Source of the DNA: Robiginitomaculum sp.
Lineage (GTDB): Bacteria > Pseudomonadota > Alphaproteobacteria > Caulobacterales > Maricaulaceae
Length of the DNA stretch: 64,000 bases
Reading direction: 5' to 3'
Assembly: GCA_002733905.1 (NCBI GenBank)
Contig: NVXK01000023.1
Span: 1 to 64,000, forward strand
Position 1 is the stretch's first letter, and the number at the start of each line of letters is the position of its first letter. The position numbers and the translations under genes were made by a program. Below, one piece after another: positions 8,796-49,520 of the stretch. A model generated the notes under the pieces. That model searched no databases. It had not been told where the DNA came from and was given only the letters and a program-made list of their open reading frames with translations.

Positions 8796-9057
8796 GACGA
8801 GGCTCCTACTTATTTCCTCCATCATCACCCATTTTAGTATGTGATTGCGCCCTATTATTTGTAATTTTGGATGATAAATATCCTAGAACTTATAAAAGTT
8901 GGCATTTATTCGTCGAAATACTAAATAAAACTGATTAATCAACCTATGTTTAATTCTTGAAGCTATTTTAAAATATGCAGTTGGAAAGGCTTTCACATTG
9001 TATTTTCCGTGTTATTTTGCTAGTTTCCAGATTACACCGCCACACAGGAAAATCGAC

Positions 9058-9696
9058 ATGTTTGCAAATGAGAATTCGTCGAAACCTGTCGAGAATAAAA
9101 AGTCGCTGCAAACAAAAAAATCAAAGCAGACGATTTGCAATGCTGCGATTTGGTGTCTGGATAAATACGGGTATGCAGAAACATCTATCCTTCGCATCAC
9201 CCAAAAAGCAGGTGTTTCCAGAGGGGCGCTGACCCATCATTTTCCGTCAAAAGAAAACCTGATTGTCGAATCCGTTGAACGACTTTTACAGCGTGCGATG
9301 ACGATTGGTCGTCGTGAACAAAATGAAGAAATGAATATTAGTGATACAATACGGGCGATTTGGGAAAATTTAGATTCACTACAAGGTCGCGCCCTTGTCG
9401 AGGTCTTGATTGCGTCACGTACTGACACAGCTTTGAACGCGCGCATCTCACAGACATTGATAAAGTGGAACCAAACGATCGGTGATAATTTACTACAAGA
9501 CTATAGAACAAGATTTGACAGTAACCGTCCAAGCGACGAGGAAATCGTCCTCTTATTCGAGGTTTGCCGTACATTTTTTAGAGGGCTATTGGTACAAAAA
9601 AGTTTTGTGGAAAATGATCATGATCTTAACAAAATTGCAGAAAAATTTATCATGATTGTCACACCCTATTTCACGTCTCGTCAGCCGCAGCCATAG
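9058..9696 (+). CDS. TetR-family regulator, probably of the Atu-like cluster
   Basis: The N-terminal helix-turn-helix is clear (TSILRITQKAGVSRGALTHHF), followed by a helical ligand domain of no fixed sequence. I use the ATG at 9058 because AGGA precedes it at normal distance; the frame is open back to 8998 without a ribosome site. The gene converges on the Atu-like operon and overlaps the end of its last gene by 26 bases. Pseudomonas atu clusters are controlled by the TetR protein AtuR, so a repressor role for this cluster is a reasonable inference. Candidate operators lie at 18097-18200. Confidence 0.88.
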   Translation: MFANENSSKPVENKKSLQTKKSKQTICNAAIWCLDKYGYAETSILRITQKAGVSRGALTHHFPSKENLIVESVERLLQRAMTIGRREQNEEMNISDTIRAIWENLDSLQGRALVEVLIASRTDTALNARISQTLIKWNQTIGDNLLQDYRTRFDSNRPSDEEIVLLFEVCRTFFRGLLVQKSFVENDHDLNKIAEKFIMIVTPYFTSRQPQP

Positions 9697-10489
9697 TTTG
9701 CAAATACCGCTCGCCTGCCACAGGCGGCGTATGCGGCGGGCCTGCAAAACATTGGGCGATTTCCATCCAGCGTTGGGCAATATCGCCCTTCACCTTTAAC
9801 TTGGAATCAAAAATAGAACGTGTCTGCGTTATTACTTGGCAAAATTCTGTTGCACATCCAAGTATACGGTTATCATTGTCAGGTGTTCCGTATTGCCAGA
9901 TTAAACCCGACGGAGCGGTGAGGCGTATATAGGGCATGTTTTCCGGAACAGTTTCGCCCTGATTTTTAAACGTCCATTCGAATGTATTCGTACCGAGCAC
10001 AACAATATTTTGGAGGCGGTCTTGGTCTATGCGCTCTACACCGAGTACATCATAAATGGCCTGCCCATGCGCCCATGTTTCCATCAAACGCGCCGTAATA
10101 GACGAGCGTACACTCATGGAAGGCCCTGCCCACATGACACGGCGCCTTGGGTCAGCTTTGCCAAAGCTTTTTTGCATATTTTGCGAAAAATCGTACCATT
10201 CCGATACCAAATCGTTGCCTTTTAAATCGCCTAACCATTCAGTTTCAAAACCTTTAAGATTACCTGTTGGCAGAGCTTGCATAACCTGCGTCAGGAAAAC
10301 ATTAAATGCTTTCTCGTCATTGAGCGACATATCAGCCGCCCTGTTCCAGACATGTAAATGGCCGATAATATCTTCGATTGTCCAGAATTTGAACTGTGTC
10401 CCTAAAGACAACTCATAATCGGACTTGTCTTTGATCAATTGATAAAGTGCTTTGCTTTCATCGGCAAAATCTTGGGGTTGTGTGAACAT
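9671..10489 (-). CDS. TIGR03084 family metal-binding protein (DinB/MDMPI-like)
   Basis: The sequence matches TIGR03084 proteins well: FKFWTIEDIIGHLHVWN near the N-terminus, SVRSSITARLMETWAHGQ in the middle and EFCQVITQTR towards the end. This belongs to the DinB / mycothiol-dependent maleylpyruvate isomerase superfamily, whose members bind a metal through His residues such as those in GHLH and WAHGQ. The reaction is unknown. Family alignments favour the start MFTQPQDFADES at 10489; an in-frame ATG at 10513 would add eight residues. It is the last gene of the operon running from atuA, so it probably acts on an intermediate or side product of that pathway. No mycothiol genes are visible here. 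Confidence 0.8.
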   Translation of the reverse strand: MFTQPQDFADESKALYQLIKDKSDYELSLGTQFKFWTIEDIIGHLHVWNRAADMSLNDEKAFNVFLTQVMQALPTGNLKGFETEWLGDLKGNDLVSEWYDFSQNMQKSFGKADPRRRVMWAGPSMSVRSSITARLMETWAHGQAIYDVLGVERIDQDRLQNIVVLGTNTFEWTFKNQGETVPENMPYIRLTAPSGLIWQYGTPDNDNRILGCATEFCQVITQTRSIFDSKLKVKGDIAQRWMEIAQCFAGPPHTPPVAGERYLQTMAAADET

Positions 10490-10544
10490 AGTCGGCTGGC
10501 CTTGTAAATTCATGTGCTAATGATTTCGTGTGCTTGTCACATGA

Positions 10545-11699
10545 TTACTTACGCGGAGCAATACCCATATGCTTACAAATAATGCCGAGCATAACTTCAT
10601 CCGCGCCGCCGCCAATAGACGCCAAGCGTTGGTCACGGAAGCGACGCGAGATCAGAACATCATTCATAAAGCCCATGCCGCCATAAAACTGTAAACATGT
10701 ATCCACAACTTCGCGGTAAAGCCGCCCTGCTTTTAACTTCAACATGGAAACATGTTCCGTGCAATCCTCACCGCGCAAATATCTTTGCACTGTTTTTTCG
10801 AGCATGGCTCTGTACATTTCCACATCGGTTTTCATCTCGGCAATACGGAAATGCACGACTTGGTTATCCAAAACCGATTTGCCAAAAATTTGGCGTTCCC
10901 GCGTATAGTCTATTGTTTCTTGTAGAGTGTTTTCCATAAAGCGGACACAATTTGACGCCACCCAAAGGCGCTCTTCCTGAAATTGTTGCATTTGATACAT
11001 GAAGCCCATATTCTCGACGCCAATAACATTGCTTTTAGGCACACGTACATCTTCGAGATAAATCAACCCCGTATCAGATGAGCACATCCCAAGTTTTTCC
11101 AATTTCTTGGCAATCGTCACGCCTTTGGTTTTCATGGGAATAATGACGAGGCTTTTATTTCTATAGGGCCCCTCATCGCCCGTATTCACAAGTGTCGTCA
11201 TAAAGTCAGCTTGGATCGCATTGGTAATCCACATTTTCGAGCCATTGATAATATAGTCGTCACCATCACTACGCGCCGTTGTTTTGATCGCGCCCACATC
11301 GGAACCAGCACTCGGTTCGGATACACCTATACAGGCGACTTGATCCCCCGCGATTGCTGGGGCTAGAAATTCTTTACGCAAGGCATCCGAACCATGAAGA
11401 GCGAGAATCGGTGTCGCCATATCGGTTTGCACACCGATTGCCATTGGCACGCCGCCACAATTTATTTCTCCGAGTGCTTCGACAAAGGCAACATTATAGC
11501 CGTAATCCAGCCCCATACCGCCATAAGCTTCTGGTTTGCAGATACCTAACAAGCCTGCATTCCCAAGTTTTTTAAACAGCTCATGAGCTGGAAATATTTC
11601 TTCTTTTTCCCACTGATCAACATAAGGGTTGATATCTTTGTCGATGATTTTTCGAGTGGTGCGTTGAATTTCGCGATGTACGTCTGTGTAAAAATCCAT
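10545..11699 (-). CDS. Acyl-CoA dehydrogenase of the Atu-like operon
   Basis: This 384-residue FAD enzyme introduces an alpha,beta double bond into an acyl-CoA. The FAD/substrate motif is CIGVSEPSAGSDV, followed by GSKMWITNA. Near the C-terminus IGGGADEV has Gly where medium-chain enzymes have their catalytic Glu. A Glu in the segment FQEERLW takes the place used by isovaleryl-CoA-type enzymes, which points to methyl-branched substrates. It lies in one direction with atuF, atuE, atuC and atuA, 35 bases after atuF. A citronellyl-CoA dehydrogenase (AtuD-like) role is possible, but a second candidate lies at 18222. Confidence 0.88.
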   Translation of the reverse strand: MDFYTDVHREIQRTTRKIIDKDINPYVDQWEKEEIFPAHELFKKLGNAGLLGICKPEAYGGMGLDYGYNVAFVEALGEINCGGVPMAIGVQTDMATPILALHGSDALRKEFLAPAIAGDQVACIGVSEPSAGSDVGAIKTTARSDGDDYIINGSKMWITNAIQADFMTTLVNTGDEGPYRNKSLVIIPMKTKGVTIAKKLEKLGMCSSDTGLIYLEDVRVPKSNVIGVENMGFMYQMQQFQEERLWVASNCVRFMENTLQETIDYTRERQIFGKSVLDNQVVHFRIAEMKTDVEMYRAMLEKTVQRYLRGEDCTEHVSMLKLKAGRLYREVVDTCLQFYGGMGFMNDVLISRRFRDQRLASIGGGADEVMLGIICKHMGIAPRK

Positions 11700-11734
11700 G
11701 GCCTGACTTCCTCTTTACTGTTTATTTCTTGCGA

Positions 11735-13735
11735 TTACTCTTTTGTAGGTTCGATAATCAGGATGACGTCACCCGCAGGAATTTGATCCCCTTGTGATGC
11801 TTTGACTGCGGTAATATTTCCTGAGACTTCGGCGAGAATATCATGTTGCATTTTCATCGCTTCCAAGACGGCCAATCGGTCGCCCTGTTTAACCTCGTCA
11901 CCTTGTTTGACCAAAATCTCTAGCAATGTGCCGTGCATTGGCGCGACAACACGTCCACCGCCGCCACCCGTTTCATCAAGCAAGCTTTGTGTAATACCGC
12001 ATAGATTTTGCAACTCGAAAATCCGCCCGCCAATATCAATTGTGATTTGGCCATTTTTACCTGCCATATGCCCCACATGCATACGCGTGCCATTTAGGTC
12101 TAAAACCGCAGCATTCGCACTCATGCTTTTTACCGTCACTTCATACAGAGTATCATCAATTTGCGCACTGTAGCAATTACGCCCCGTCGTCGTGAGGACG
12201 AAAGCAATATCATCTTCACCGACTGCGTATTTATATTCACTCATCAACCGCCCTTGCGATCCCCAATTAAGAAGCTCTGAATTCACCCCCAAAGAGTTTT
12301 CACGTGCGGTCTTGGCTTCGTATTCATAATTGAGCACACTTGCGAGTACACATGTTTGGGCCGTTGTTTCCGACCCCTGTAAATCTTGTGCGTTAAACGC
12401 TTCGCCTATGAATGCTGTCGTCGCTTGCCCTGACGCAAAAACAGCATTGTCCAAAATATCGACGAGGAAAGCTTTATTCGTCGTCACCCCAAACAGTCGC
12501 GTATTCACAAGAGCATTGCGTAAACGTGCGGTCGCGATTTCACGCGTCTCGCCCCATGCAATAATTTTTGCAATCATCGGATCATAAAAAGGTGAAATAT
12601 CTGATCCCGTATCAATCCCCGTATCCACGCGAACACCCTCTGATAGAGCAGGTTCCCAAATATCAATATGACCTGTCATTGGCAGAAAATCTTGCGCGAC
12701 ATCTTCGGCGTATAACCGTGCTTCGACCGCGTGACCGTTCAGCTTCACATCATCTTGGGTAAACCCAAGGCCCTCACCATTGGCGACTTTGATTTGCAAA
12801 TCCACAAGGTCAAACCCCGTAATCATTTCTGTGACGGGATGTTCGACTTGTAAACGCGTATTCATTTCAAGAAAGTAAAACGCACCGTCTGTATCCAATA
12901 AAAATTCAACAGTACCTGCGCCGACATATTGAATGCTCTTCGCGGCCTCTACCGCCGCTGTTCCCATTTGCTCACGTTGTGTTTGGGTTAAAATAGGGCA
13001 TGGGGCTTCTTCGATAACTTTTTGATGGCGGCGTTGTACGGAACAATCACGTTCACCCAAATGAACTGTATTGCCTGCTGTGTCGGCAAAGATTTGCACT
13101 TCGACATGACGTGGTTTTTGCACAGCTTTTTCAAGTATCAGATCACCATTTCCAAAAGCATTCAATGCTTCTGAACGGGCTGAAACAATGGCTGTGTCCA
13201 GTTCTTTGGCAGCGTTTACAAGGCGCATACCGCGTCCACCGCCCCCTGCCACGGCTTTGACCATAATAGGGAAGCCAATTTTTTTAGCTTCTGCGATCAA
13301 AACTTCATCGTCTTGGCTTTCGCCTTCATACCCCGGCACACACGGCACCCCTGCCGCCATCATTTTTACTTTGGCATTGCCTTTATGCCCCATTAACGCA
13401 ATGGCTTCGGCACTGGGGCCGATAAAGACAATATTGGCCCTTGCACATGCATTGGCAAAATCTGCATTCTCAGATAAAAAACCATATCCGGGATGCACAG
13501 CTCCTGCATTGGTTTTCTTGGCGGCGTCCAATATTTTCTCGACAACGAGATAGCTTTCATGCGCTGGTGACGCACCAATGCATACAGCTTCATCAGCAAG
13601 TTTTACATGGGGTGCATTTTCGTCGGCGTGGGAATAAACGGCAATTGTACGCATGCCCATGGCTTTGGCAGAACGGATTATCCGTACCGCAATTTCACCG
13701 CGATTTGCAATAAGTATGGAATTAAATTTTGCCAT
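11735..13735 (-). CDS. atuF: Acyl-CoA carboxylase alpha subunit (biotin carboxylase/BCCP), AtuF-like
   Basis: The 666-residue product carries a biotin carboxylase domain ([13 protein letters not shown] at the N-terminus, AVAGGGGRGMR glycine loop, [13 protein letters not shown]). A C-terminal biotinyl domain has the acceptor Lys in EAMKM near residue 628. It charges biotin with CO2 for the partner beta subunit encoded two genes upstream. The start at 13735 has GGGGAG before it and lies two bases after the hydratase stop; the frame stays open to 13771 inside that gene. The operon context with AtuA points to geranyl-CoA carboxylase or a related branched enoyl-CoA carboxylase. A separate MCC alpha subunit is encoded at 57007. 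Confidence 0.85.
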   Translation of the reverse strand: MAKFNSILIANRGEIAVRIIRSAKAMGMRTIAVYSHADENAPHVKLADEAVCIGASPAHESYLVVEKILDAAKKTNAGAVHPGYGFLSENADFANACARANIVFIGPSAEAIALMGHKGNAKVKMMAAGVPCVPGYEGESQDDEVLIAEAKKIGFPIMVKAVAGGGGRGMRLVNAAKELDTAIVSARSEALNAFGNGDLILEKAVQKPRHVEVQIFADTAGNTVHLGERDCSVQRRHQKVIEEAPCPILTQTQREQMGTAAVEAAKSIQYVGAGTVEFLLDTDGAFYFLEMNTRLQVEHPVTEMITGFDLVDLQIKVANGEGLGFTQDDVKLNGHAVEARLYAEDVAQDFLPMTGHIDIWEPALSEGVRVDTGIDTGSDISPFYDPMIAKIIAWGETREIATARLRNALVNTRLFGVTTNKAFLVDILDNAVFASGQATTAFIGEAFNAQDLQGSETTAQTCVLASVLNYEYEAKTARENSLGVNSELLNWGSQGRLMSEYKYAVGEDDIAFVLTTTGRNCYSAQIDDTLYEVTVKSMSANAAVLDLNGTRMHVGHMAGKNGQITIDIGGRIFELQNLCGITQSLLDETGGGGGRVVAPMHGTLLEILVKQGDEVKQGDRLAVLEAMKMQHDILAEVSGNITAVKASQGDQIPAGDVILIIEPTKE

Positions 13736-13737
13736 AT

Positions 13738-14568
13738 TTACACACTCTCCCCTAATGGTGCTAGCGCCCAATCAGGGGCGCGCTTACTCAGAATAGACGT
13801 AATGCCTTCATGCCCCTCTTCACTCATCATGCAATCTACAAAACTATCCGCGGCCGCTTGCATTTGCTCGTCTTCATTGAGATATGGCAGTGAGAGCAAT
13901 AAAGCCTTTGTCGCAGCAATTGCGGCGGGCGCACACTGGCGTATGGTCGCTTGCACGCGTATGATCGCAGCGTCCATTTCACCATCTCCCTCGACGACTT
14001 CATCCGCAAGGCCGAGTGTCACCGCCTCTTTGCCTTTAAAGCTGGCGGCACTCATCATCAAGCGACGACCATTGCGCGTCCCCAAACGTGCCATCACATA
14101 GGGTGTAATTTGCGCGGGATTGAGGCCGATTTTTGTTTCAGTAAGTGAGAAACGCGCCCCTGCCTCAACAATCACCATATCGCCAATACAGGCCATGCCA
14201 AAACCACCTGCCATTGCCGCGCCTTCAATTGCCATAATCGTAAACTGGGGCAAGCGGTTGATGGCCTGAAACATTTTTCCACCAGAAAGACTTAGTGCGG
14301 TTACGGTTTTACGGCGCGTTTCCAGATCGCCTGCAAAGCTTTCCTTGAACGCTTTTAAATCAGCACCAGCGCAAAATATGCCGCCGCGCCCCCGAAACGT
14401 CACACCACGAATATCACGGCGATCTTCTAAGGATTTTGCGAGTAAAACCAATGCGTGGACACGATCAGTTGTCAAAGGATTACGAATTTCAGGTTGGTTG
14501 AACCATACAGTCAGCCAACCGTTTTTCAGTTCTAAATCGAGTGCGTCCGATTGCGGTAAATTTTTCAT
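13738..14568 (-). CDS. atuE: Enoyl-CoA hydratase, AtuE-like
   Basis: This crotonase-fold protein of 276 residues has the oxyanion-hole segment FCAGADLKAF and the second active-site region IEGAAMAGGFGMAC. The catalytic Glu lies in TETKIGLNPAQ. In Atu pathways AtuE hydrates the isohexenylglutaconyl-CoA made by geranyl-CoA carboxylase; in leucine breakdown LiuC does the parallel step. The gene is fused tightly into the carboxylase operon, two bases from atuF and 37 bases from atuC, so its substrate should be the carboxylase product. The specific substrate is inference. Confidence 0.8.
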   Translation of the reverse strand: MKNLPQSDALDLELKNGWLTVWFNQPEIRNPLTTDRVHALVLLAKSLEDRRDIRGVTFRGRGGIFCAGADLKAFKESFAGDLETRRKTVTALSLSGGKMFQAINRLPQFTIMAIEGAAMAGGFGMACIGDMVIVEAGARFSLTETKIGLNPAQITPYVMARLGTRNGRRLMMSAASFKGKEAVTLGLADEVVEGDGEMDAAIIRVQATIRQCAPAAIAATKALLLSLPYLNEDEQMQAAADSFVDCMMSEEGHEGITSILSKRAPDWALAPLGESV

Positions 14569-14605
14569 GTCATATTCTCATCTAAATTATCTGGGTTTTT
14601 TCTGG

Positions 14606-16237
14606 TTAGATTCGCGCAACACCGAAACTATTTGGATGCAGTTTGCGTCGTCGGGATTCCCAACATGTTTCAAGGGCAAAGCCCAAAACTTTGCGACTGT
14701 CCCGTGGATCAATTATGCCGTTATCCAGCAAGCGTCCCGAGGTATAAAATGCGTCTGATTGTGGTTTGAACACGTCCAAAATTTCTTGTTTTTTCATTTG
14801 GAACATTTGCTCCATTTGATCGTTCATCTCGATACCTTTGCGTTTCGCAATTGCGCGACCGACAACGTCCATTGTCGTTGCGGCTTGTTCGCCGCCCATC
14901 ACGCCTGTCTTGGCATTTGGCCATGCAAACAAAAAGTCCGCGTCATAACCATAGCCGCACATGCCGTAATTTCCCGCGCCAAAGCTCGCGCCGATATAAA
15001 GCGAAAGTTTCGGGACACGTATATTTGAGACGGCTTGGATCATTTTTGATCCGTGCTTAATCATGCCTTTTTGTTCGTATTCCGTACCGACCATATAGCC
15101 CGTAATATTGTGCAAAAACACAATGGGTAAATCTTGCTGATCACACAGTTGGAAAAACTGCGTTGCCTTCGCTGCACTGTCTGGATCGAATGGCCCGTTA
15201 TTACCAATAACGCCAACGGCGTGGCCCATTATTTTGGCCTGTACGCAAACAGTAGTTACCCCAAACCCTGATTTAAATTCAAGAAAATCAGAACCATCAA
15301 CCAGACGCGCGATCACTTCACGTGCGTCATATGGCTTTCGGTAATCAACGGGCACAATACCAGCAAGTTCCGCAATGTCATAAAGCGGCGTTTCAACATC
15401 TGGGCTTGGCAGTGTTTCACAATTTTTATTCCAATCCAACCGTGCCACAAGGTCACGGCAAATCTGTAATCCGTGCGCGTCATCTTCGGCAACATATTCA
15501 ACCAGACCCGATATGGTCGCGTGCATTTCCACACCGCCCAGCTCGTCTGGATTGGCGATCTCGCCCGTTGCGGCCTGTACAAGTGCAGCCCCCGCAAGGG
15601 CGGCCATGCCGTTTTTCTTTACCCCGATCACATAATCGCTCATGCCCGGTAAATAAGCGCCACCTGCTGTCGAAGGGCCATGTAGAACCACGAATGTAGG
15701 AATGCCAGCAGCGCTTAAACGACCAAGACGGTTGAACAATCCACCGCCAACGGCCCATTGTTCGACTTGATAGGCCATCAGGTTTGCGCCCGCGCTTTCC
15801 ACCAAATGAATGAGTGGCAATTTATGTTTCAGCGCAAAATCCAAAACCTTGATGGCTTTATCCGCGCTCATGACTGTGGACGCGCCTGCGTTGATACCAC
15901 TATCGCTGACCATAATCGCACACCGAATGCCGCTGACAAAACCAATGCCAGAAATAGAACTTGCCCCCGGCAAGCTTGTGTCTGGATTGGTATCGTCAAC
16001 CAGATAACTCGCCATATTAAAAAGCTCTAGGAATGGCATGCCCGGATCGAGAAGATGCTTGAGACGGTCACGCGGTAAAAGCTGCCCACGTTGTTCAAAA
16101 CGCGGTTTACGTTTAGCAGAAAATTTCTCGGCTCGCTCTTCCAGACCGCGTAATTTATCAATCAGTGCTAACATATCTTCTCGGTTCTTTTTGAACCCGT
16201 CCGCACCCGTCGATATTTTTGAACGAAATATTGTCAT
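14606..16237 (-). CDS. atuC: Acyl-CoA carboxylase beta subunit (carboxyltransferase), AtuC-like
   Basis: The 543-residue carboxyltransferase has both crotonase-like halves: GANLMAYQVEQW with STAGGAYLPGM in the first, and ITGYMVGTEYEQKG with [11 protein letters not shown] in the second. It moves the carboxyl group from biotin to a beta-methyl enoyl-CoA. Where the liuB product of this window reads [10 protein letters not shown], this protein reads GGLFNRLGRLS. That glycine-rich version resembles geranyl-CoA carboxylases, which are thought to need space for a longer acyl chain where MCC has a bulky side chain. It lies three bases after atuA in the same operon. The two carboxylases here are clearly different lineages. 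Confidence 0.82.
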   Translation of the reverse strand: MTIFRSKISTGADGFKKNREDMLALIDKLRGLEERAEKFSAKRKPRFEQRGQLLPRDRLKHLLDPGMPFLELFNMASYLVDDTNPDTSLPGASSISGIGFVSGIRCAIMVSDSGINAGASTVMSADKAIKVLDFALKHKLPLIHLVESAGANLMAYQVEQWAVGGGLFNRLGRLSAAGIPTFVVLHGPSTAGGAYLPGMSDYVIGVKKNGMAALAGAALVQAATGEIANPDELGGVEMHATISGLVEYVAEDDAHGLQICRDLVARLDWNKNCETLPSPDVETPLYDIAELAGIVPVDYRKPYDAREVIARLVDGSDFLEFKSGFGVTTVCVQAKIMGHAVGVIGNNGPFDPDSAAKATQFFQLCDQQDLPIVFLHNITGYMVGTEYEQKGMIKHGSKMIQAVSNIRVPKLSLYIGASFGAGNYGMCGYGYDADFLFAWPNAKTGVMGGEQAATTMDVVGRAIAKRKGIEMNDQMEQMFQMKKQEILDVFKPQSDAFYTSGRLLDNGIIDPRDSRKVLGFALETCWESRRRKLHPNSFGVARI

Positions 16238-16239
16238 TG

Positions 16240-18033
16240 CTAGCTTCTCACTTCATTGGTCAATTCTGGTATAAGGCCTTGGGGAATCTCCACTTTATAG
16301 GAGAGCAAAATTTGTGCATAGGCTTTCGCCTGTGGGTCATTACGCAAGCTTGCCATACCACCGCCGTCAAGAACATCGTGCAATAAAAAATTGATCGCCG
16401 CCACCCCTGGCAAGAAAAACCTCTCGACGCGTGACGGATTAAAATGGGCGAAATATTGCGAGACACTCTCCTCGGTTAGCGCGCGCCATATCCAAGGTAG
16501 GTATTTTACGTCACGCGCAATAATGCCGATATTTGCTTTGTCACCCTTATCGCCACTCCGCCCCCATGCAAGCGCGATGAGAGGGACACTGATCAATGCC
16601 TCGGAAGTTGGCGGTGATTTTGGCGGCGCGTGAGGCGTCGGTGCGACACAAATATCGGCATTTTGCGTATACGTCGTATCTACGCTATCAATTTTTACCA
16701 CCACATTATCTTTCGGCAAGGTGAAGGAAAACAGGCGCACAATCGGCGAAGGTTTTGGGCGACCTGCATTGAAGATTGACAAACCAGCAGGTGTGGCAAG
16801 CGCCATGCCTGTGGTTTCTTTAATCAAGATACCTGCGCCGTTCATGCTTTCGTGACGTACAGCCAATTTCAAAACCACTTCGCGTATCTCAGGATTATCG
16901 GAACCGCCATATTGACTATCTGCGCCAATCACTTCGATACTTGTCTGGGCGAATGGTGGGAACTTGACGCGTTTAAGTAAATTTTCTGCGCGTTCTAGGG
17001 AAGCCTTACCATATGTTTTTGCTTTTTTGGCGGCGTCAAGGCCTGTGAAGCTTATCAACATGCCTGCACGAAACCCGTCAATATAGGTCGCACACACCTT
17101 ATAGTCTTTGGGTGGTGGGCGACCTATAGCGCCCCTAACACTGACACAATCTTCGCTGATCTGTTCTATTTTAACATCTGAGAAATCACAAACTACGTCT
17201 GGTAATATATAAGTCTGTGGATCGCCAATTTCATAGATCATTTGTTCGGATACGGTTGCAACACTTACGAGGCCGCCTGTGTTTTTTGGTTTAGAGACGG
17301 TGAAATTTGCATTTTCTTGTACTTCAACAATGGGGTAGCCTATGTTGACCAGACTATCTTTTACCAATTCCCAATCGGTGAAATTACCCCCGGTCGCCTG
17401 CACACCACATTCAATAATATGACCAGCAAGGCTTGCTTGCGCCAATTTATCATACTCATCCATAGTCCAACCAAAATGAGATATACATGCGCCAAGGGTT
17501 ACGGCGCTATCAACACAACGCCCCGTAATGACAATGTCCGCCCCATCGTTGAGCGCCTGTGCAATTGGCGCTGCCCCGAGATAGGCATTGATACTGGCAA
17601 CTTTTGCTACATCAGGAAAGTTTTTGCCAGAGAACATTTCCTTGATATTTTTATCTTGAAAATCAACAGCGCGTGAAACGAGATCATCACCAGAGATGAC
17701 TGCCACTTTTAAATCCAAGCCTTGCTTTGCGATTAACGCCCGCAATGCTTCACCGCAAGCCATAGGGTTTACACCGCCTGCATTAGATATGACTTTCACA
17801 TTTTGTTTTGCAATTCGCGCAAGATTACGCCCCATAGCGCTCGTGACGAAATCTACCGCGTAACCAAGTGCGGGGTCTTTTGCACGCGCACGTGCAAGGA
17901 TCGACATGGTGACTTCTGCGAGGTAATCATAGACCAGATAATCAATATCGCCGTCACGTAATAATTGCGGCGTCGACATTGCGGCATCGCCCCAATATCC
18001 GCTCGCGCCAGCGATTTTGATAGATGATTTCAT
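16240..18033 (-). CDS. atuA: AtuA-family protein (DUF1446)
   Basis: The 597-residue product has the long DUF1446 domain first (GASGYWGDAAMSTPQLL, NAGGVNPMACGEALRALI, ITGRCVDSAVTLG). An AtuA-like ferredoxin-fold domain with the motif GRSGDKGDKANIGIIARD follows. AtuA is needed for growth on acyclic terpenes in Pseudomonas, but its reaction is not settled. The gene heads a six-gene minus-strand operon, with the next start three bases after its stop. Upstream is a 188-base divergent promoter region with two dyads. This gene is the strongest evidence that the cluster is Atu-like and not a second leucine cluster. Confidence 0.9.
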   Translation of the reverse strand: MKSSIKIAGASGYWGDAAMSTPQLLRDGDIDYLVYDYLAEVTMSILARARAKDPALGYAVDFVTSAMGRNLARIAKQNVKVISNAGGVNPMACGEALRALIAKQGLDLKVAVISGDDLVSRAVDFQDKNIKEMFSGKNFPDVAKVASINAYLGAAPIAQALNDGADIVITGRCVDSAVTLGACISHFGWTMDEYDKLAQASLAGHIIECGVQATGGNFTDWELVKDSLVNIGYPIVEVQENANFTVSKPKNTGGLVSVATVSEQMIYEIGDPQTYILPDVVCDFSDVKIEQISEDCVSVRGAIGRPPPKDYKVCATYIDGFRAGMLISFTGLDAAKKAKTYGKASLERAENLLKRVKFPPFAQTSIEVIGADSQYGGSDNPEIREVVLKLAVRHESMNGAGILIKETTGMALATPAGLSIFNAGRPKPSPIVRLFSFTLPKDNVVVKIDSVDTTYTQNADICVAPTPHAPPKSPPTSEALISVPLIALAWGRSGDKGDKANIGIIARDVKYLPWIWRALTEESVSQYFAHFNPSRVERFFLPGVAAINFLLHDVLDGGGMASLRNDPQAKAYAQILLSYKVEIPQGLIPELTNEVRS

Positions 18034-18096
18034 AATAGTATAGTCACCTCGGCTTGATGAGTTTTTTTCTTGAATTTATGAATATTTTGCGCTAAA

Positions 18097-18118
18097 ACAA
18101 AACGGTCGTTCTGTTTGT
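18097..18118. promoter_or_regulatory. Imperfect palindrome in the atuA/acyl-CoA dehydrogenase divergent region
   Basis: The 22-base element runs from ACAAA at 18097 to TTTGT at 18118 with an AACG-GT-CGTT core. It resembles TetR-family operators and shares CGTTCT with the perfect dyad 65 bases downstream. Confidence 0.4.
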
Positions 18119-18176
18119 AAGTAAAGAAACTCAAAAAAAAAGCAACAGAAAAGGTAAAATTTTAAATCTGTGCTCT

Positions 18177-18200
18177 CGTTCTTACACCTATATAAGAACG
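18177..18200. promoter_or_regulatory. Perfect 8-8-8 inverted repeat, candidate operator
   Basis: CGTTCTTA at 18177-18184 and its exact reverse complement TAAGAACG at 18193-18200 flank an eight-base spacer. The site ends 21 bases before the start codon of the dehydrogenase at 18222, where a bound repressor would block transcription. The likely ligand is the TetR protein encoded at 9058, by analogy with AtuR. Confidence 0.55.
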
Positions 18201-18221
18201 CAAATTTTATATGAGGTCATT

Positions 18222-19364
18222 ATGCGAAGCCCATTCGAAACCGAGGAACGTGCCGCTTTTCGCGAAAGCTTTCGTAAATTTGTCGCCAAAGAAATCACGC
18301 CCTACGCTCAGGAATGGGACGAAGACGGCACATTTCCGTGGCACATTCATGAAAAGGCTGGGGCGCTTGGTTTATATGGTTTTGGGGTTGATGAAAAATA
18401 CGGCGGGCTTGGTTTCGATGATGCCTTTATGCGCCTGATCTGTGCAGAGGAGCTTGCCCAATGCGGTGTGAACGGTATTGCGGCGGCACTTGGTTGTCGA
18501 AATATTTCGATTGGCCCTATCCAAAAATTTGGCGGTGACGCGCTGAAAGCACGGGTATTGCCTGATATATTAAGTGGCCGCAAAGCCTCTTGCCTTGCCA
18601 TTACAGAAGCGTCAGGCGGATCAGATGTCGCCAATATGAAAACTACTGCCACACAGGACGGTGACAGCTATATTCTAAATGGCTCCAAAACCTTTATTAC
18701 GGGCGGTATGAATTCCGACTATTTTGTTGTTGGCGCCCGTACATCTGGCGCGGGACTAAAAGGGATATCATTATTTTTTGTTGATAAAGATTGCGACGGG
18801 TTTTCGCGGATGGCGCTTGAACGGAAAATGGGTTGGTGGTGTTCGGATCAGGCCAGTTTGTTTTTTGATAATTGTAGCATTCCTGCAAACAATATGCTTG
18901 GGAGTGAAGGCACAGGCTTTCTCGCCATTATGAATAATTTCAATTATGAGCGCCTGTCTATAATCGGGCAAGCCATTGGCATGATGAAATTGGCCTTGAA
19001 AGAATGCATCGCCTATGCACAAATACGAGAAACCTTTGGTCAGGCCCTTATCAAGCACCAAGTTATTCGTCATAAAATTGCCGATATGTCTGCCAAGATT
19101 GATGCCTGTGAAGCCTATGCCAATCAAATCTGCTGGTTGATTAATGATGGGGAAATGCCTGTTGCAGAAATTAGCAAAGCAAAGTTCTTTACGACGAAGG
19201 CACTTGAATATGTGGCCAGTGAAGGCATGCAGATTTTTGGTGGGGCGGGTTATTTGCGTGGCAATAATATTGAACGCATTTACCGCGAGGTTAAAGTTTT
19301 GGCCATTGGTGGTGGCTCTGAAGAAATTATGAAAGATTTAGCCGTGCGGCAAATGGGACTTTAA
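18222..19364 (+). CDS. Acyl-CoA dehydrogenase, divergent from atuA
   Basis: This 380-residue acyl-CoA dehydrogenase has the FAD motif CLAITEASGGSDVAN and the substrate segment GSKTFITGG. The Glu in NYERLS sits at the isovaleryl-type catalytic position, while AIGGGSEEI has Gly at the medium-chain position. It shares a promoter region with the atuA operon and is followed 35 bases later by a CoA ligase. It probably oxidises the acyl-CoA that the ligase makes and is a candidate AtuD (citronellyl-CoA dehydrogenase). Two different dehydrogenases in one regulon could serve the initial acyl-CoA and a shortened intermediate. Confidence 0.88.
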   Translation: MRSPFETEERAAFRESFRKFVAKEITPYAQEWDEDGTFPWHIHEKAGALGLYGFGVDEKYGGLGFDDAFMRLICAEELAQCGVNGIAAALGCRNISIGPIQKFGGDALKARVLPDILSGRKASCLAITEASGGSDVANMKTTATQDGDSYILNGSKTFITGGMNSDYFVVGARTSGAGLKGISLFFVDKDCDGFSRMALERKMGWWCSDQASLFFDNCSIPANNMLGSEGTGFLAIMNNFNYERLSIIGQAIGMMKLALKECIAYAQIRETFGQALIKHQVIRHKIADMSAKIDACEAYANQICWLINDGEMPVAEISKAKFFTTKALEYVASEGMQIFGGAGYLRGNNIERIYREVKVLAIGGGSEEIMKDLAVRQMGL

Positions 19365-19399
19365 TTCAAAAATATATCTGAATAAATCAGGGGACAAAA

Positions 19400-20950
19400 A
19401 TGAATATTGCAAATTATGATTGGATCGATTTTTACGCACGTACCCTACCGGGTAAAACGGCGACGATTGATATCGCTAGCAATCGTTCCCAGACCTATGC
19501 ACAAATGGAAAAACGGGTCGGGCATATTGCTGGCTATCTGTTATCACAAGGCATAAAGCCACAAGACAGGGTCGGTGTATTTGCACAAAACTCCACTGAT
19601 ATTTTAGAGATTATGTTCGCGATTTGGCGTGTCGGCGCGGTGCATCTCGCACTTAATTTTCGCCTCACGGCCAAAGAACTTTCAAGCATTTTATCCAATG
19701 CGGAACCCGTCATGGTTTTTGCAGACAGCGACTTTGATGATGTTATCAAAACACTACGTACAGATACCGACGCAGACACAGACACAGACACTATCAAATG
19801 GGTCAGCATGGACGGGCTAGGCAATGATACAGAGTTTGAGCGCATCATGACCCATGCCCCCTATACCAACACAAATGATGTTGAAAAGATTACCACGCCC
19901 GATCAGCAAGCCTTGTTAATGTATTCATCAGGCACGACAGGCACGCCCAAAGGCGTCATGATTAGCCATGAGAATATATTTTATAACGCAACCAGCGGCG
20001 CCTTTACCCTACAGACAAATCGTGAATGTGTAAGTTATGCCGTTATGCCAATTTTTCATATTGGGTCATTAATGGGGTTTTCTCTGCCCGCACTTTACGC
20101 AGGTGGTACGGCGATCATAGACCGTGTATTCACACCACAGGCCATGTTGGCAGCGATTAATAATAAAGAATACGGGATTACCCATTTCCTAGGCTTGCCC
20201 GCAATTTTCAATGCCCTTAGCTTGCATCCAGATTGTAAAACGACAGATTTTTCACGGATCAAAGCCGCAGTTGGCGGCGCAGAATCCATGCCCATTGCCT
20301 TACTGAATTGGTGGAAAGACAATGCCGTACCTGTTTTGGAAGTATATGGATTAACCGAAACGACAGGGCTAGGCTGTATCTTACTCCACGAGGATCTTGA
20401 ACATAAAATCGGGTCAGCAGGACAAGCGCCTCTGTTCTCCCAATTTTGTATTTTGGACGAAGACGGAAAAGAACGCCCCCGTAATACACGCGGTGAAATT
20501 TGTATTAAGGGCGCGAATATCACCTCTGGGTATTGGCGCAACCCAGAAGCGACCAAAGCCGCCTTTATCAATGGATGGTTTCGCACAGGCGATATTGGCC
20601 GCATGGACGATGACGGATATATCTATATCGAAGACCGTTTAAAGGACATGTATATTTCAGGCGGTGAGAATATTTATCCTGCCGAAATTGAAAGCATTCT
20701 TTTTGCAATGCCAGAGATTATGGAGGTTTCTGTCATTGGTGTACCTGATGAAAAATGGGGCGAGACTGGCTGTGCCGTGGTTGTTCTTAACGCGGGACAT
20801 ACGCTTGACATTGAACAGATCAAAAGCTTTTGCGCTGAAAAACTCGCAAGCTATAAACACCCACAGCATTTAGTTTTTAGTGAGGCATTACCGCGAAACG
20901 CCACTGGCAAAGTTCTTAAATTCAAACTTCGCCAGAGCATTAAAATTTAG
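19400..20950 (+). CDS. AMP-forming acyl-CoA synthetase
   Basis: The 516-residue adenylate-forming enzyme activates a carboxylic acid to its CoA thioester. Visible motifs are the P-loop-like YSSGTTGTPKGV, the A5 segment YGLTETTG, the A7/A8 hinge region WFRTGDIGRMD, and the catalytic C-terminal Lys in PRNATGKVLKFKL. AGGGGAC precedes the start. Context suggests the substrate is citronellic, geranic or another methyl-branched acid (AtuH-like role), but ligase specificity cannot be read here. A short Thr-Asp repeat near residues 117-130, encoded by an imperfect GACACA repeat at about 19770-19795, interrupts an otherwise normal N-terminal domain. Confidence 0.9.
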   Translation: MNIANYDWIDFYARTLPGKTATIDIASNRSQTYAQMEKRVGHIAGYLLSQGIKPQDRVGVFAQNSTDILEIMFAIWRVGAVHLALNFRLTAKELSSILSNAEPVMVFADSDFDDVIKTLRTDTDADTDTDTIKWVSMDGLGNDTEFERIMTHAPYTNTNDVEKITTPDQQALLMYSSGTTGTPKGVMISHENIFYNATSGAFTLQTNRECVSYAVMPIFHIGSLMGFSLPALYAGGTAIIDRVFTPQAMLAAINNKEYGITHFLGLPAIFNALSLHPDCKTTDFSRIKAAVGGAESMPIALLNWWKDNAVPVLEVYGLTETTGLGCILLHEDLEHKIGSAGQAPLFSQFCILDEDGKERPRNTRGEICIKGANITSGYWRNPEATKAAFINGWFRTGDIGRMDDDGYIYIEDRLKDMYISGGENIYPAEIESILFAMPEIMEVSVIGVPDEKWGETGCAVVVLNAGHTLDIEQIKSFCAEKLASYKHPQHLVFSEALPRNATGKVLKFKLRQSIKI

Positions 20951-35645: not shown

Positions 35646-36629
35646 TTAGGAAATGAGTTTATTTTCCAAACTTCCTATGCCCTCGATTTCGAGTTTGATC
35701 ACGTCATCAGGCTTGAGGAATGTCCATTGTTCAATCCCGGCCCCATTACTGGCCGCACCCGTACCTATCACTTCGCCTGGAATAATATATTCGCCTTCTG
35801 AGGCCGCACTTATCAGCTCGGACAGAGAATAATACATTTGCGCCGTGTTTGAGCGCCCACGTAATTCATCATTGACGTAAACCTTCATCTCCAAGTTTTG
35901 AGGGTTTCCTATCTCGTCCGCAGTAACAATCCACGGCCCTAAAACATTCCCAGTATGAAAGTCTTTGCTCTTAAGAGGCCCGACTTTCCCCTTAAAGAGC
36001 TCCTGAATTAATCGTCCGCGCGCGGACACGTCGTTATAGATGGTATATCCCCATATATAATCATTTGCCTTTTCTACAGGCACATCAATCCCTTTTTTGC
36101 CGATAATAATACCAAGTTCGAGTTCATAGTCCATTTTATCTTCGGCAAAACTTGGCCACTGCACCGCCTGTCCATGCCCAATAAATGAGGTCGTATTGCC
36201 CTTATAATATACGGGGTTTATATAAAATGAGGGTGGGACTTTCATGAATTTTATAATTTTATTCAGCAATAGGCCGAACCGTCCAAGCTTTGCCTTGATC
36301 ATCGCGTCAATAGACTGACGGATATGTTGTTCATAGACACTAAAACAAATCAGTTTTACGGGCTGTGGCAAAGGGGAGAGGAAAGACAGTCCGTCAAGTT
36401 TCAAACGATCAATTTTAGATGTATTGTTTGTCGCAAACTGCACATGGCCCTGAACCCTCTCCAAAGCTTCGTCCCCACCGTCAATAATAGCCTGCATTGA
36501 AGATAAAGTTTCGCTTGCCCGTCCTGTATGTAAATTTTCAACATCGGCAAGGTCAGCGCCGTAAACGAGGTCGTCAAAAACGAAACCAACGCGCGCACCG
36601 CGCTCAGTTTCATATGTAAACAATTTCAT
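35646..36629 (-). CDS. Fumarylacetoacetate hydrolase family protein
   Basis: The 327-residue product has the FAH C-terminal fold with its metal ligands in DYELELGIIIG (Glu-x-Glu) and IYNDVSARGR (Asp), and the substrate loop around KSKDFHTGNVLGPW. Members hydrolyse or decarboxylate acylpyruvate-type ring-cleavage products. It is the third gene of a compact minus-strand cassette after a flavin hydroxylase and an extradiol-type dioxygenase, nine bases after the latter. It therefore most likely opens the C-C bond of the ring-fission product. The N-terminal domain is of the longer FAH type. Confidence 0.88.
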   Translation of the reverse strand: MKLFTYETERGARVGFVFDDLVYGADLADVENLHTGRASETLSSMQAIIDGGDEALERVQGHVQFATNNTSKIDRLKLDGLSFLSPLPQPVKLICFSVYEQHIRQSIDAMIKAKLGRFGLLLNKIIKFMKVPPSFYINPVYYKGNTTSFIGHGQAVQWPSFAEDKMDYELELGIIIGKKGIDVPVEKANDYIWGYTIYNDVSARGRLIQELFKGKVGPLKSKDFHTGNVLGPWIVTADEIGNPQNLEMKVYVNDELRGRSNTAQMYYSLSELISAASEGEYIIPGEVIGTGAASNGAGIEQWTFLKPDDVIKLEIEGIGSLENKLIS

Positions 36630-36638
36630 ATTTTAATC

Positions 36639-37298
36639 CTATTTTTGTTTTGGACCAAACCAGTAATGGAGCTTAAGCAAGCATTTGTGGACAATGCCCA
36701 AATATGCAGTCGGCATTGAACTTGGATGACGTGTTGTTCCTTGTTCTCGCTCCATGAGTTCTTTTACTGGTGTCCCGCTCTTAAATTTCGCCAACATGTC
36801 GTCAGGGTCAAAATCAACACCAATCGGATTCATTTGGAAATCAGGCGTTTCCGCCCATGCCAGCAGCTTGTCGGGACTATCAAATACATCGACTTGTAAC
36901 TCGAACCAGTTCTTGTCCGGATCGACATAATACATGGAAACCGTAGCGCCATGATGGATGCACCATCCGGGCAATATTCCACACCCTTTTAAGCGTTCAT
37001 AATTTAGAAGCAGTTTTTCCAACGATCCATAGGTAAAGGCAATATGATCAACACCTGCACTCAATTTCCAACGCGGAAAAAGAAGGGGGATATTTGCAAT
37101 GGCAATACGGTGATGCTCATTATCAAATGTTAAAAACGCCGCTGTTTCAAATTCATAAGAGACTTGAGCCTCGAAGACTGTCTTATGCCACACCAACATT
37201 TTTTTAAATCTGGAGGTTTTTAAAACCACATGTGCAAAATAGTCGGGGGCAATTTTACCCCGTTGTTTTGCAGGTATTGGCATTATAAGTTTGTCCAT
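36639..37298 (-). CDS. VOC-family extradiol-type dioxygenase
   Basis: The sequence has a vicinal-oxygen-chelate fold with a full Fe(II) triad: His23 in FAHVVLKTS, His85 in VDHIAF and Glu133 in WFELQVD. The spacing and the segment VSMYYVDPDKNWFE are those of one-domain type I extradiol dioxygenases. The product of 219 residues has a C-terminal extension rich in charged residues. It lies 18 bases after the flavin monooxygenase. With that enzyme and the FAH hydrolase it forms a plausible hydroxylation, meta-cleavage and hydrolysis route for an aromatic acid. The true substrate is unknown. Confidence 0.8.
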   Translation of the reverse strand: MDKLIMPIPAKQRGKIAPDYFAHVVLKTSRFKKMLVWHKTVFEAQVSYEFETAAFLTFDNEHHRIAIANIPLLFPRWKLSAGVDHIAFTYGSLEKLLLNYERLKGCGILPGWCIHHGATVSMYYVDPDKNWFELQVDVFDSPDKLLAWAETPDFQMNPIGVDFDPDDMLAKFKSGTPVKELMEREQGTTRHPSSMPTAYLGIVHKCLLKLHYWFGPKQK

Positions 37299-37316
37299 TT
37301 TGAGCTCCTTTTCCCT

Positions 37317-39128
37317 TTAAAAGAGGTTAAACTGTTTCATGATACCGTGAATATGCACCGCTGGAGATTTCACAGCCTGCACGGCGCGCCACGCAATATG
37401 ACCATCTGGACGCACCAATAATAACCCACCCGTGTCTAGCTCCCAAAACGCGGCCCAAAGGCGCGGATCAATTTCATATTTCTTGTCATGCATAGGAATG
37501 ATATTGAGGCCAAGCGCCCTAGATTTAAATTGCCCCTCCAATTTCGCCATCCATTTTTTGGCGGCTGAATTGACGAATAAAGTATAACAATCATAGCCCA
37601 GCAAATCGTGAGCCGACATGGGGGTTTCCCCTTCTTGAACCCAAATATGCGGCAGTCTTGCGCCTGCTCCTGTTGTTTTCACATATGTCATCACAGAGCT
37701 TTGGGGTGTTTCACACGCGGTGTGATCGATCAAAAGACCCGAAGGATAAATATATCCAATTTCGAGGCCCAGCATATTAAAATGCTCTTCCTGATTATTG
37801 ATCTCCGTCGAAATTCGTGCTTTCAATGCTTGCCCTTTCTGCGTCTTTTGTAACGGCGCATTGATTTTTTGACGCAGCATTTTATACACGGCCCCTAATG
37901 CAAATTTTGAAACGAATGCAGGGCAGGCTTTTAAGACAGCATTGTTGCGAAGGCGCGCAATCATGTCCATCTTGCTTGGGTCCAAATCAAACGCTCGAAT
38001 AACATCATCCATTTTATGGAAATTACGGACACTTACTTCGCAATTTTTTTGCGCGACAGGTTTTCGCTCGGCTTCATACGTTTCTAAAATTTTAGGCGGA
38101 CACGCCCCCTTAATAACAGCAGCAAGTTTCCAAGCCAAATTATGCGCGTCCGCCACCCCCGTATTTAGTCCTAACCCGCCTGTTGGTGGGAAACGATGCG
38201 CGCTATCTCCAACGAGGAATATATTGCCCCTTTGGTATTCTTCTGCGACCTGCGCGGTCATGTGCCAAAGCCCTTTAAACGTTATTTCAAAAGGAATATC
38301 CGTGCCAATAACATTGCGAATAAGATTGCGGCAATATGCCTCGGTATATGTTTCAATATTTTCCCACTGTAAAAAAACAGGCACCATAAACACGGCTACA
38401 CTCTTGGGGTCGTGGACAATCATTGTCCCCATACAGTCAGGATCAAGACACCAATAGAGCAAGTTCTTCTCAATCCCCTCCAACGCGGACAGATCAGCCC
38501 GAATGGTGATATTAAATAAATCCGCAATCGATTCTGGGCCCGTTTTTACAATGTCTAAAGATCGCGCCACAGCACTGTTGGCGCCGTCTGCTCCGATAAG
38601 GTACTGACCAGAAAGCACGTAGTCTTGCCCTGTTTTCGTATTGTTAATTTGGCAGGTCATCACCTGATCACCCTGTTTGTGCGCCAACCAATTATGTCCA
38701 TAACGGATATCCGCAAGTTCGTAAGAACGGGCGTATTCAAGCAAAATGGCCTCAAGGCGGTTTTGCGATATATTCATGATCCTAACACTAGAGGCATTCT
38801 TGCGCCGTGTTTGACTGTCTATATCCCCATTTGCGCGCAACGTACCAATCACAGGGGAAAACATATTTGCGGCCCATATAATTTGATCAACATTCGCATC
38901 ACTCGCGATATCTTCCAACACCTGCATGGGAATGCCTGCCTCGCGTAAAATCTCTATTGTCCGCGTATTTATCACATGGGCTGCTGGCGCCTGCACAATT
39001 GTCGACCGACGTTCAAGAACAACATTAGCAATACCCGAACGCGATAATAAGATGGAGGAGAATAATCCAGCAGGCCCAGCACCAACAATTATAACAGGTG
39101 TATTATTTTCTAGTAATGTTTTGGGCAC
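37317..39128 (-). CDS. FAD-dependent aromatic hydroxylase (MhpA/phenol-hydroxylase-like)
   Basis: This group A flavoprotein monooxygenase of about 603 residues has the three FAD/NAD(P)H signatures: VGAGPAGLFSSILLSRSG near the N-terminus, the DG-type motif YLIGADGANSAVARSL, and GDSAHRFPPTGGLGLNTGVAD. A C-terminal thioredoxin-like domain follows, ending in RPDGHIAWRA, as in 3-hydroxyphenylpropionate and phenol hydroxylases. I use the GTG at 39128, which has GAGAGAGG five bases upstream; the frame is open to a TTG at 39143. It is the first gene of the cassette and lies just behind a perfect dyad at 39146-39169. Confidence 0.88.
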   Translation of the reverse strand: MPKTLLENNTPVIIVGAGPAGLFSSILLSRSGIANVVLERRSTIVQAPAAHVINTRTIEILREAGIPMQVLEDIASDANVDQIIWAANMFSPVIGTLRANGDIDSQTRRKNASSVRIMNISQNRLEAILLEYARSYELADIRYGHNWLAHKQGDQVMTCQINNTKTGQDYVLSGQYLIGADGANSAVARSLDIVKTGPESIADLFNITIRADLSALEGIEKNLLYWCLDPDCMGTMIVHDPKSVAVFMVPVFLQWENIETYTEAYCRNLIRNVIGTDIPFEITFKGLWHMTAQVAEEYQRGNIFLVGDSAHRFPPTGGLGLNTGVADAHNLAWKLAAVIKGACPPKILETYEAERKPVAQKNCEVSVRNFHKMDDVIRAFDLDPSKMDMIARLRNNAVLKACPAFVSKFALGAVYKMLRQKINAPLQKTQKGQALKARISTEINNQEEHFNMLGLEIGYIYPSGLLIDHTACETPQSSVMTYVKTTGAGARLPHIWVQEGETPMSAHDLLGYDCYTLFVNSAAKKWMAKLEGQFKSRALGLNIIPMHDKKYEIDPRLWAAFWELDTGGLLLVRPDGHIAWRAVQAVKSPAVHIHGIMKQFNLF

Positions 39129-39145
39129 CGTCACCTCTCTCAATT

Positions 39146-39169
39146 TAATTATACTTACAAATATAATTA
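39146..39169. promoter_or_regulatory. Perfect 8-8-8 inverted repeat before the aromatic cassette
   Basis: TAATTATA at 39146-39153 and TATAATTA at 39162-39169 are exact reverse complements around an eight-base spacer, 17 bases upstream of the hydroxylase start. The TetR gene 220 bases upstream is the obvious candidate ligand. Confidence 0.5.
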
Positions 39170-49473: not shown

Positions 49474-49520
49474 CCCCTCTCTAAATCTCTTTTGAGCTAG
49501 CAACACATAAAAGGCATATT

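Follow-up and report, generated by a model that had tools for sequence, protein, structure and literature searches.

An Atu-like gene cluster around a divergent promoter

The first 64,000 nucleotides of contig NVXK01000023.1 of Robiginitomaculum sp. (hereafter the window; Alphaproteobacteria; host genome of 3.48 Mb in 43 contigs, 96.9% complete) contain a gene cluster that resembles the Pseudomonas Atu cluster and includes a gene for a TIGR03084 protein. Reading from a divergent promoter, the minus strand encodes AtuA, a carboxyltransferase (beta) subunit, a hydratase, a biotin carboxylase (alpha) subunit, acyl-coenzyme A (CoA) dehydrogenase A and the TIGR03084 protein; on the other side of the promoter, the plus strand encodes acyl-CoA dehydrogenase B and then a CoA ligase. 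A TetR gene is convergent with the TIGR03084 end of the operon, and 26 bases at its 3' end are shared with the stop end of the TIGR03084 gene.

8998-9696, plus strand: TetR-family regulator (TetR_N, E 8.7e-12; homologue at the equivalent place in locus L079, see below)
9671-10513, minus strand: TIGR03084 protein, with a DinB/MDMPI-type N domain and an SCP2-like C domain (TIGR03084, 281.7 bits for a curated cut-off of 247.95; MDMPI_N)
10545-11699, minus strand: acyl-CoA dehydrogenase A (Pfam; Glu in EERL, Gly at the catalytic-Glu place in IYEGT)
11735-13771, minus strand: biotin carboxylase and biotin carrier (alpha), AtuF-like (Pfam/NCBIfam; biotin motif EAMKM at residue 637)
13738-14568, minus strand: enoyl-CoA hydratase (crotonase), AtuE-like (ECH_1)
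14606-16237, minus strand: carboxyltransferase (beta) of geranyl-CoA carboxylase (GCC) type, AtuC-like (best PDB match 5ikl, 8.7e-171; Gly164)
16240-18033, minus strand: AtuA, putative fused lyase (Pfam AtuA, 466.6 bits, and AtuA_ferredoxin, 91.6 bits)
18034-18221: divergent promoter region, 188 bases
18222-19364, plus strand: acyl-CoA dehydrogenase B, AtuD-like by position (Pfam; homologue in locus L042)
19400-20950, plus strand: acyl-CoA ligase (AMP-binding), AtuH-like role (Pfam/NCBIfam)
55296-60194, plus strand: separate Liu-type cluster, with LiuB (55296-56936), LiuD (57007-59028) and LiuA (59025-60194) named by homology

The original prediction had placed AtuA, both carboxylase subunits, a hydratase, two dehydrogenases, a CoA ligase and a TetR gene at 9671-20950; open reading frames with Pfam or NCBIfam matches account for all of them, the TetR gene lying just outside this interval. 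By eye, an in-frame ATG at 9058 is a possible true start of the TetR frame, listed from a TTG, and an ATG 12 codons further in is the likely start of the alpha-subunit frame, also listed from a TTG. The second-best NCBIfam model of the hydratase is gamma-carboxygeranoyl-CoA hydratase, with 136.5 bits, under its cut-off of 426. The closest relative of the block was found in L079, a Robiginitomaculum metagenome-assembled genome (MAG), in which the whole block is arranged identically (identities: ligase 71%, dehydrogenase B 84%, AtuA 68%, carboxyltransferase 85%, hydratase 66%, biotin carboxylase 68%, dehydrogenase A 82%, TIGR03084 73%, TetR 73%). Since the whole arrangement recurs there, the block is far beyond chance.

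The window has in common with the Pseudomonas cluster atuABCDEFGH the genes for AtuA, GCC-type alpha and beta subunits, a hydratase, an AtuD-like dehydrogenase, a CoA ligase and a TetR regulator, and keeps the relative order A-C-E-F (Pseudomonas names and order as given in an excerpt of PMC4847356). It differs by the absence of AtuB and AtuG, the presence of TIGR03084 and of a second dehydrogenase, and a carboxylase that falls in a clade beside the Pseudomonas GCC. No AtuR-type operator (CCAAGCGCTTGG, up to 2 mismatches) was detected at 18034-18221, with 5 occurrences in the window versus 3.07 expected, and a regulator that has diverged might bind a different site. Intergenic repeats sought around this promoter region were not informative.

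The absence of AtuB and AtuG from the cluster was confirmed: seven short-chain dehydrogenase (SDR) queries taken from the host genome, which are not authentic AtuB/AtuG, detected no SDR in the window, and none of the 34 PF13561 (SDR-type) matches of the genome lies on its contig. Likewise, no SDR was detected in the fetched stretch, sometimes short, of 34 of 38 related loci, which indicates that the absence is a feature of this variant and not a pointer to its starting compound. The proposal that the route starts from an acid instead of an alcohol is thus weak, given also the SDR-type matches elsewhere in the genome and a CoA ligase that is needed in either case.

In an alignment, dehydrogenases A and B both have a Glu in the ERL motif and a Gly where most acyl-CoA dehydrogenases place the catalytic Glu, a pattern that we take to mark enzymes of the isovaleryl-CoA dehydrogenase type; LiuA of the window has, at these two positions, first a Glu and then none. 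In L042, a 68% homologue of dehydrogenase B lies between the carboxyltransferase and the hydratase, the place of atuD.

The carboxylase is of the geranyl-CoA type

Among PDB sequences, the beta subunit matched best the Pseudomonas GCC (5ikl, cited above), followed at lower significance by 9tps (named propionyl-CoA carboxylase beta, 1.4e-134) and by the methylcrotonyl-CoA carboxylase (MCC) 3u9r (4.1e-130). An excerpt of PMC4673880 gives as a classification rule Gly162 in GCC versus Phe191 in MCC, together with a 3-residue insertion in MCC. The window carboxyltransferase has Gly164 in this column and no insertion, and the column holds Gly in 34 and Ala in 2 of 36 related rows (32 different sequences). 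LiuB of the same window displays a Phe at this site. In a tree rooted at midpoint, in which the GCC branch is long (0.95), GCC, the window protein and the 36 rows were split from LiuB/MCC at 100/100, and the window protein with the 36 rows (37) was set off from GCC at 100/99.

The Liu (leucine/isovalerate) cluster, with its homologous carboxylase and dehydrogenase but a Phe at the selectivity site and a separate locus, serves as an internal control and makes a role of the Atu-like carboxylase in leucine breakdown less likely. A leucine-type carboxylase was rejected on the Gly/Phe site, the missing insertion and the tree position. Judged from its sequence, the window carboxylase is GCC-like and not of the methylcrotonyl-CoA type, as expected from the prediction of an Atu-like cluster.

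AtuA resembles a fused citramalate lyase

The sequence of AtuA matched citramalate lyase subunit A of the PDB weakly (E 0.19 alone, 2.3e-4 with a 24-row profile). Its predicted structure (predicted local distance difference test, pLDDT, 88) matched chain A of the citramalate lyase 9evf with Z 30.5 over 420 residues, the next row reaching 9.6, and the resemblance covers AtuA residues 1-451. Chain B of the lyase, a separate protein of 105 residues, also matched the model (Foldseek probability 1.00, E 2e-3), and its size suggests that the C-terminal ferredoxin-like domain of AtuA is the counterpart. The AtuA model thus looks like a fusion of both citramalate lyase subunits, supporting AtuA as the C-C lyase of the pathway. 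AtuA is a single chain, 15% identical to the lyase, and its substrate is presumably different; the entry title of the lyase (9erq/9evf) names an ADP - pyruvate complex.

According to an excerpt of a 2025 review that cites its authors' unpublished data (PMC12016498), the AtuA-like ThnQ/ThnS of anaerobic naphthalene degradation split an acyl-CoA at a tertiary carbon that bears a hydroxyl group; they are two proteins with an alicyclic substrate, likened to AtuA by description. Elsewhere, excerpts assign the C-C cleavage step to LiuE (PMC4097962) or still term the lyase role of AtuA speculated (PMC9973270, 2022). Our literature searches, here and below, covered open-licence papers, and returned no useful paper joining citramalate lyase with AtuA or acyclic terpenes. 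The lyase role of AtuA becomes directly testable.

A classical 3-hydroxy-3-methylglutaryl-CoA (HMG-CoA) lyase was not found in its 96.9% complete genome, the curated model reaching at best 58.5 bits for a cut-off of 246. Three HMGL-like matches are present and none is taken as HMG-CoA lyase: a candidate on contig C2 (PF00682 match) was rejected, the gene being a 4-hydroxy-2-oxovalerate aldolase, and the other two are taken, from frame length, as isopropylmalate synthase and pyruvate carboxylase. On C2, the aldolase gene forms a pair with an acetaldehyde dehydrogenase gene. Across 289 genomes of the class, HMG-CoA lyase was detected in 144 at E 1e-60 and in 142 over the cut-off. It is missing from 8 of 18 genomes with a window-type carboxylase, including the one-contig genome G121, versus 15 of 138 other carboxyltransferase-positive genomes (p 0.001, relatedness ignored). 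Two CitE-like HpcH/HpaI genes of the host are possible HMG-CoA lyase substitutes, and AtuA is therefore not proven to be the sole lyase. In a Sphingorhabdus locus (L144, 17940-18791), a CitE-like CoA ester lyase gene, seen by eye, follows the Liu carboxylase genes and possibly substitutes for HMG-CoA lyase.

TIGR03084 is a recurrent partner of the cluster

To define the distribution of TIGR03084, we used the class sample (289 genomes) and an even phylum sample (299 genomes). Carboxyltransferase identity was scored in the class sample on up to 4 candidates per genome, window-type meaning at least 56%, and Fisher values count related genomes as independent. TIGR03084 is over the cut-off in 38 of the 289 genomes, strong AtuA (E <1e-100) is present in 67, and both occur in 28. 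TIGR03084 was found in 16 of the 18 genomes with a carboxyltransferase of at least 56% versus 22 of the 271 others, and lies within 10 kb of this carboxyltransferase in 15 of the 16 (coordinates read from tables; exception G281). By family code, 11 families contain this carboxylase type, 9 of them with TIGR03084. The protein is rare in the phylum sample, where 7 of the 299 genomes have a match above the cut-off. These data support the claim that TIGR03084 is built into the operon, as a conserved part of the cluster.

For the gene neighborhoods, 37 other class-sample loci were combined with 80 named loci (the best 80 of at least 584 confirmed stretches). Collapsing duplicates (records reached twice by different routes, or proteins identical in their central stretch) reduced 118 rows to 107 including the window; before collapsing, AtuA/carboxylase-linked loci numbered 44 of 117. 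The 106 distinct loci comprise 38 with a window-type AtuA, carboxyltransferase or biotin carboxylase nearby, 58 without and 10 at contig edges. On the TIGR03084 tree, which does not include L106, the linkage label is clustered, yet the supported branches require it to have been gained or lost at least 7 times, indicating that the linkage is not one inherited block.

The linkage also occurs in a second phylum. Six plasmid records were inspected out of 49 that match TIGR03084. On the plasmids of Rhodococcus oxybenzonivorans, R. opacus, Mycolicibacterium chubuense and Tsukamurella tyrosinosolvens, TIGR03084 directly precedes AtuA with a 4-base overlap. All four stretches contain a biotin carboxylase and an acyl-CoA dehydrogenase, and a carboxyltransferase is in view in three; the sets comprise most of the same genes in orders that differ from the window, and the four AtuA proteins are 33-36% identical to that of the window. 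Conservation of TIGR03084 next to atuA elsewhere, which the original prediction had proposed to check, thus holds for L079, for the 15 of 16 genomes mentioned above with respect to the carboxyltransferase, and for the four Actinomycetota plasmids, and does not extend to the 58 unlinked loci. The operon belongs to a recurring and widespread form of the Atu pathway; both this form and the structurally informative enzyme family that it includes are apparently undescribed. Databases label TIGR03084 merely "metal-binding protein", no paper naming it or combining maleylpyruvate isomerase with Atu terms was found, and its reaction is apparently unstudied. A search on SgcE11 returned nothing useful.

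Several neighbors of TIGR03084 were recorded in addition. Three loci titled Pelagibacteraceae (L130, L148, L150) contain AtuA, a hydratase, TIGR03084 and a flavin adenine dinucleotide (FAD) monooxygenase-like gene (Pfam on L130 only). In Streptomyces L193 and L194, TIGR03084 adjoins a thioesterase gene, with a GMC oxidoreductase near. A flavoprotein of the nitronate monooxygenase family is encoded no more than 4 kb from TIGR03084 in 11 of the 38 linked loci, in 13 of the 58 unlinked ones and in 1 of the 10 at contig edges (e.g. L111, 6051-6992; L100, 5863-6999). In several loci its gene occupies the place of dehydrogenase A; these flavoproteins are possible functional partners of TIGR03084. 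A biotin-synthase-like gene (radical SAM and BATS, Pfam) just after TIGR03084 (L117, 10849-11880) belongs to a sequence cluster found in six loci, and would suit a biotin-dependent pathway. Finally, the TIGR03084 of L115, a contig titled Klebsiella pneumoniae MAG, groups with Myxococcota/Binatota rows, and this MAG is probably mislabelled.

TIGR03084 has the two-domain fold of a maleylpyruvate isomerase

The TIGR03084 model (pLDDT 92.6) matched mycothiol-dependent maleylpyruvate isomerase (MDMPI; 2nsf) over both domains, with Z 14.8, 4.2 A and 221 aligned residues; the match spans model residues 7-254 (Foldseek E 2.7e-5). The next fold matches were DinB-type proteins, with Z 11.2 and 147-154 aligned residues, and SCP2-named proteins for the C domain, with Z 4.6-6.0. 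As a helical-bundle Z below about 13 can reflect mere arrangement, the two-domain coverage is a stronger point than the Z score. Identity to the isomerase is 9-10%, and the TIGR03084 family profile found no chain among PDB sequences.

All 38 TIGR03084 members compared, and all 6 actinobacterial ones, have H52, E145 and H149. Further positions that are constant among the 38, R161 and C255 for example, are for the most part not conserved in the six. The MDMPI_N match suggests that H52, E145 and H149 may be metal ligands of the MDMPI type; the triad of MDMPI is His52/Glu144/His148, at numbers similar to those of TIGR03084. The entry 2nsg is titled as an H52A mutant.

The same excerpt of PMC4673880 reports that GCC uses the cis isomer and that the trans isomer would probably not fit. 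Consequently, an acid or alcohol with a trans C2=C3 bond would need isomerisation. TIGR03084, a relative of a conjugated-enoyl cis-trans isomerase encoded within the same operon, is a good candidate for this step, and we tentatively propose, at less than even odds, that it acts as a metal-dependent E/Z isomerase feeding the cis-specific carboxylase. If so, cis-specific carboxylases could use trans substrates, such as those of geraniol- or phytol-type alcohols, and the family would gain a name.

Proposed pathway and alternatives

Removal of methyl branches is an obstacle in the breakdown of isoprenoids, e.g. the chlorophyll side chain. The operon probably removes such branches from plant- or algae-derived acids, and we assign it with good confidence to the catabolism of beta-methyl-branched (isoprenoid) acids; that TIGR03084 is a functional part of this pathway, whatever its reaction, is likely, if slightly less secure. 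In the order of steps that we infer, the ligase would form the CoA ester of the acid, a branched-type dehydrogenase would yield the 3-methyl-2-enoyl-CoA, and the GCC-type carboxylase would add a carboxyl at the beta-methyl group. The crotonase would hydrate the carboxylated product to a tertiary alcohol, from which AtuA would remove an acetate unit at the tertiary carbon, giving a 3-oxoacyl-CoA for beta-oxidation. TIGR03084 may isomerise the enoyl-CoA, or its carboxylated product, between E and Z, rendering the trans isomer usable by the cis-specific carboxylase. That TIGR03084 defines a new step, as originally suggested, is plausible but unproven. In the most complete form of this reading, to which we give a probability of about 0.27, TIGR03084 is a new isomerase of beta-methyl removal and AtuA the sole tertiary-carbon lyase of its kind where HMG-CoA lyase is absent, the two together marking out a widespread second version of the Atu pathway that spans two phyla or more.

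A number of observations weigh against the pathway with TIGR03084 as a functional part. Helical bundles can reach Z of about 13 by arrangement alone, and the 14.8 of TIGR03084 is little above. Alphaproteobacteria are, to our knowledge, not known to make mycothiol; a thiol cofactor would therefore differ from that of the fold relative, or be absent. Two of the 18 carboxylase genomes (G001 and G041) have no TIGR03084, and 22 of the 38 TIGR03084 genomes have no carboxyltransferase of at least 56%, four of these 22 having one at 53-54%. In 58 of the 106 loci, the fetched stretch contains no window-type AtuA or carboxylase. L043 and the three Pelagibacteraceae loci have AtuA and TIGR03084 with no carboxyltransferase or biotin carboxylase match in the stretch, and so does L073, where the contig ends just past AtuA. 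In S. parvus and S. globisporus C-1027 (L193 and L194), TIGR03084 lies in an apparent enediyne-type cluster, and AtuA is absent from the genes listed for the stretch. An isomerase role leaves the carboxylase-less and enediyne copies unexplained, unless unsaturated acyl chains in general are substrates. Three actinobacterial carboxyltransferases compared with that of the window are merely 42-44% identical to it; at the selectivity site, where the alignment has a gap, two of them have Ala and one has Gly, and all lack both the Phe and the insertion.

Among the alternatives, the same operon could act on a larger isoprenoid or sterol-side-chain acyl-CoA than those of C10 citronellate or geranate, namely phytol-derived phytenoyl-CoA or sterol side chains branched at C24, a serious possibility although short of probable. 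The pocket lacks the Phe and has a Gly-Gly in many relatives, several clusters come from marine lineages according to record titles, the C domain of TIGR03084 is SCP2-like, and two Rhodococcus plasmids carry an SCP2 gene at a distance of about 2 kb from the carboxyltransferase gene of the cluster. Against this, a literature search on phytenic acid and decarboxymethylation found no relevant paper.

Alternatively, TIGR03084 could be a thiol S-transferase or hydrolase that protects the cell from reactive or stalled enoyl-CoA, or recovers CoA from it, instead of an on-path isomerase. This role is doubtful to the same degree as the isomerase role, the two being about equally likely. Mycothiol and bacillithiol S-transferases are among its DinB relatives (Z 8.0 and 7.8), and TIGR03084 is found in loci that lack the carboxylase and adjoins a thioesterase gene in the enediyne-type clusters; among the matches listed, however, the isomerase alone spans both domains (Z 14.8 versus 11.2 for the next).

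It is unlikely that AtuA also, or mainly, stands in for HMG-CoA lyase in leucine breakdown. The missing classical enzyme and its uneven absence (8/18 versus 15/138) would be explained, but the two CitE-like genes could serve, the assembly is 96.9% complete, 10 of the 18 carboxylase genomes do hold the lyase, and over all carboxyltransferase-positive genomes AtuA is weakly tied to its absence (14/23 versus 51/133, p 0.065). Far less credible is a second methylcrotonyl-CoA (leucine) cluster: its enzyme classes are shared and GCC and MCC are homologous, but Gly164, the missing insertion, the grouping with GCC in the tree, the presence of AtuA and the separate Liu cluster all oppose it. Least credible of all, TIGR03084 would be a passenger gene with no functional tie, as its many copies without these neighbors might suggest, but the linkage is scattered over its tree (at least 7 changes) and is seen again, with the genes ordered differently, in another phylum. 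The isoprenoid-acid pathway with TIGR03084 as a working part remains our preferred reading. TIGR03084 is tied to the window-type carboxylase in Alphaproteobacteria and stands beside AtuA in Actinomycetota.

Other gene blocks of the window

By eye, a FAD monooxygenase-like, a VOC dioxygenase-like and a fumarylacetoacetate-hydrolase-like gene lie with a TetR gene at 35646-40092, possibly an aromatic ring-cleavage block. Further along, at 48814-54246, genes for transaldolase, glucose-6-phosphate dehydrogenase, 6-phosphogluconolactonase, phosphogluconate dehydratase and 2-keto-3-deoxy-6-phosphogluconate (KDPG) aldolase stand in a row, forming, by eye, an Entner-Doudoroff block.

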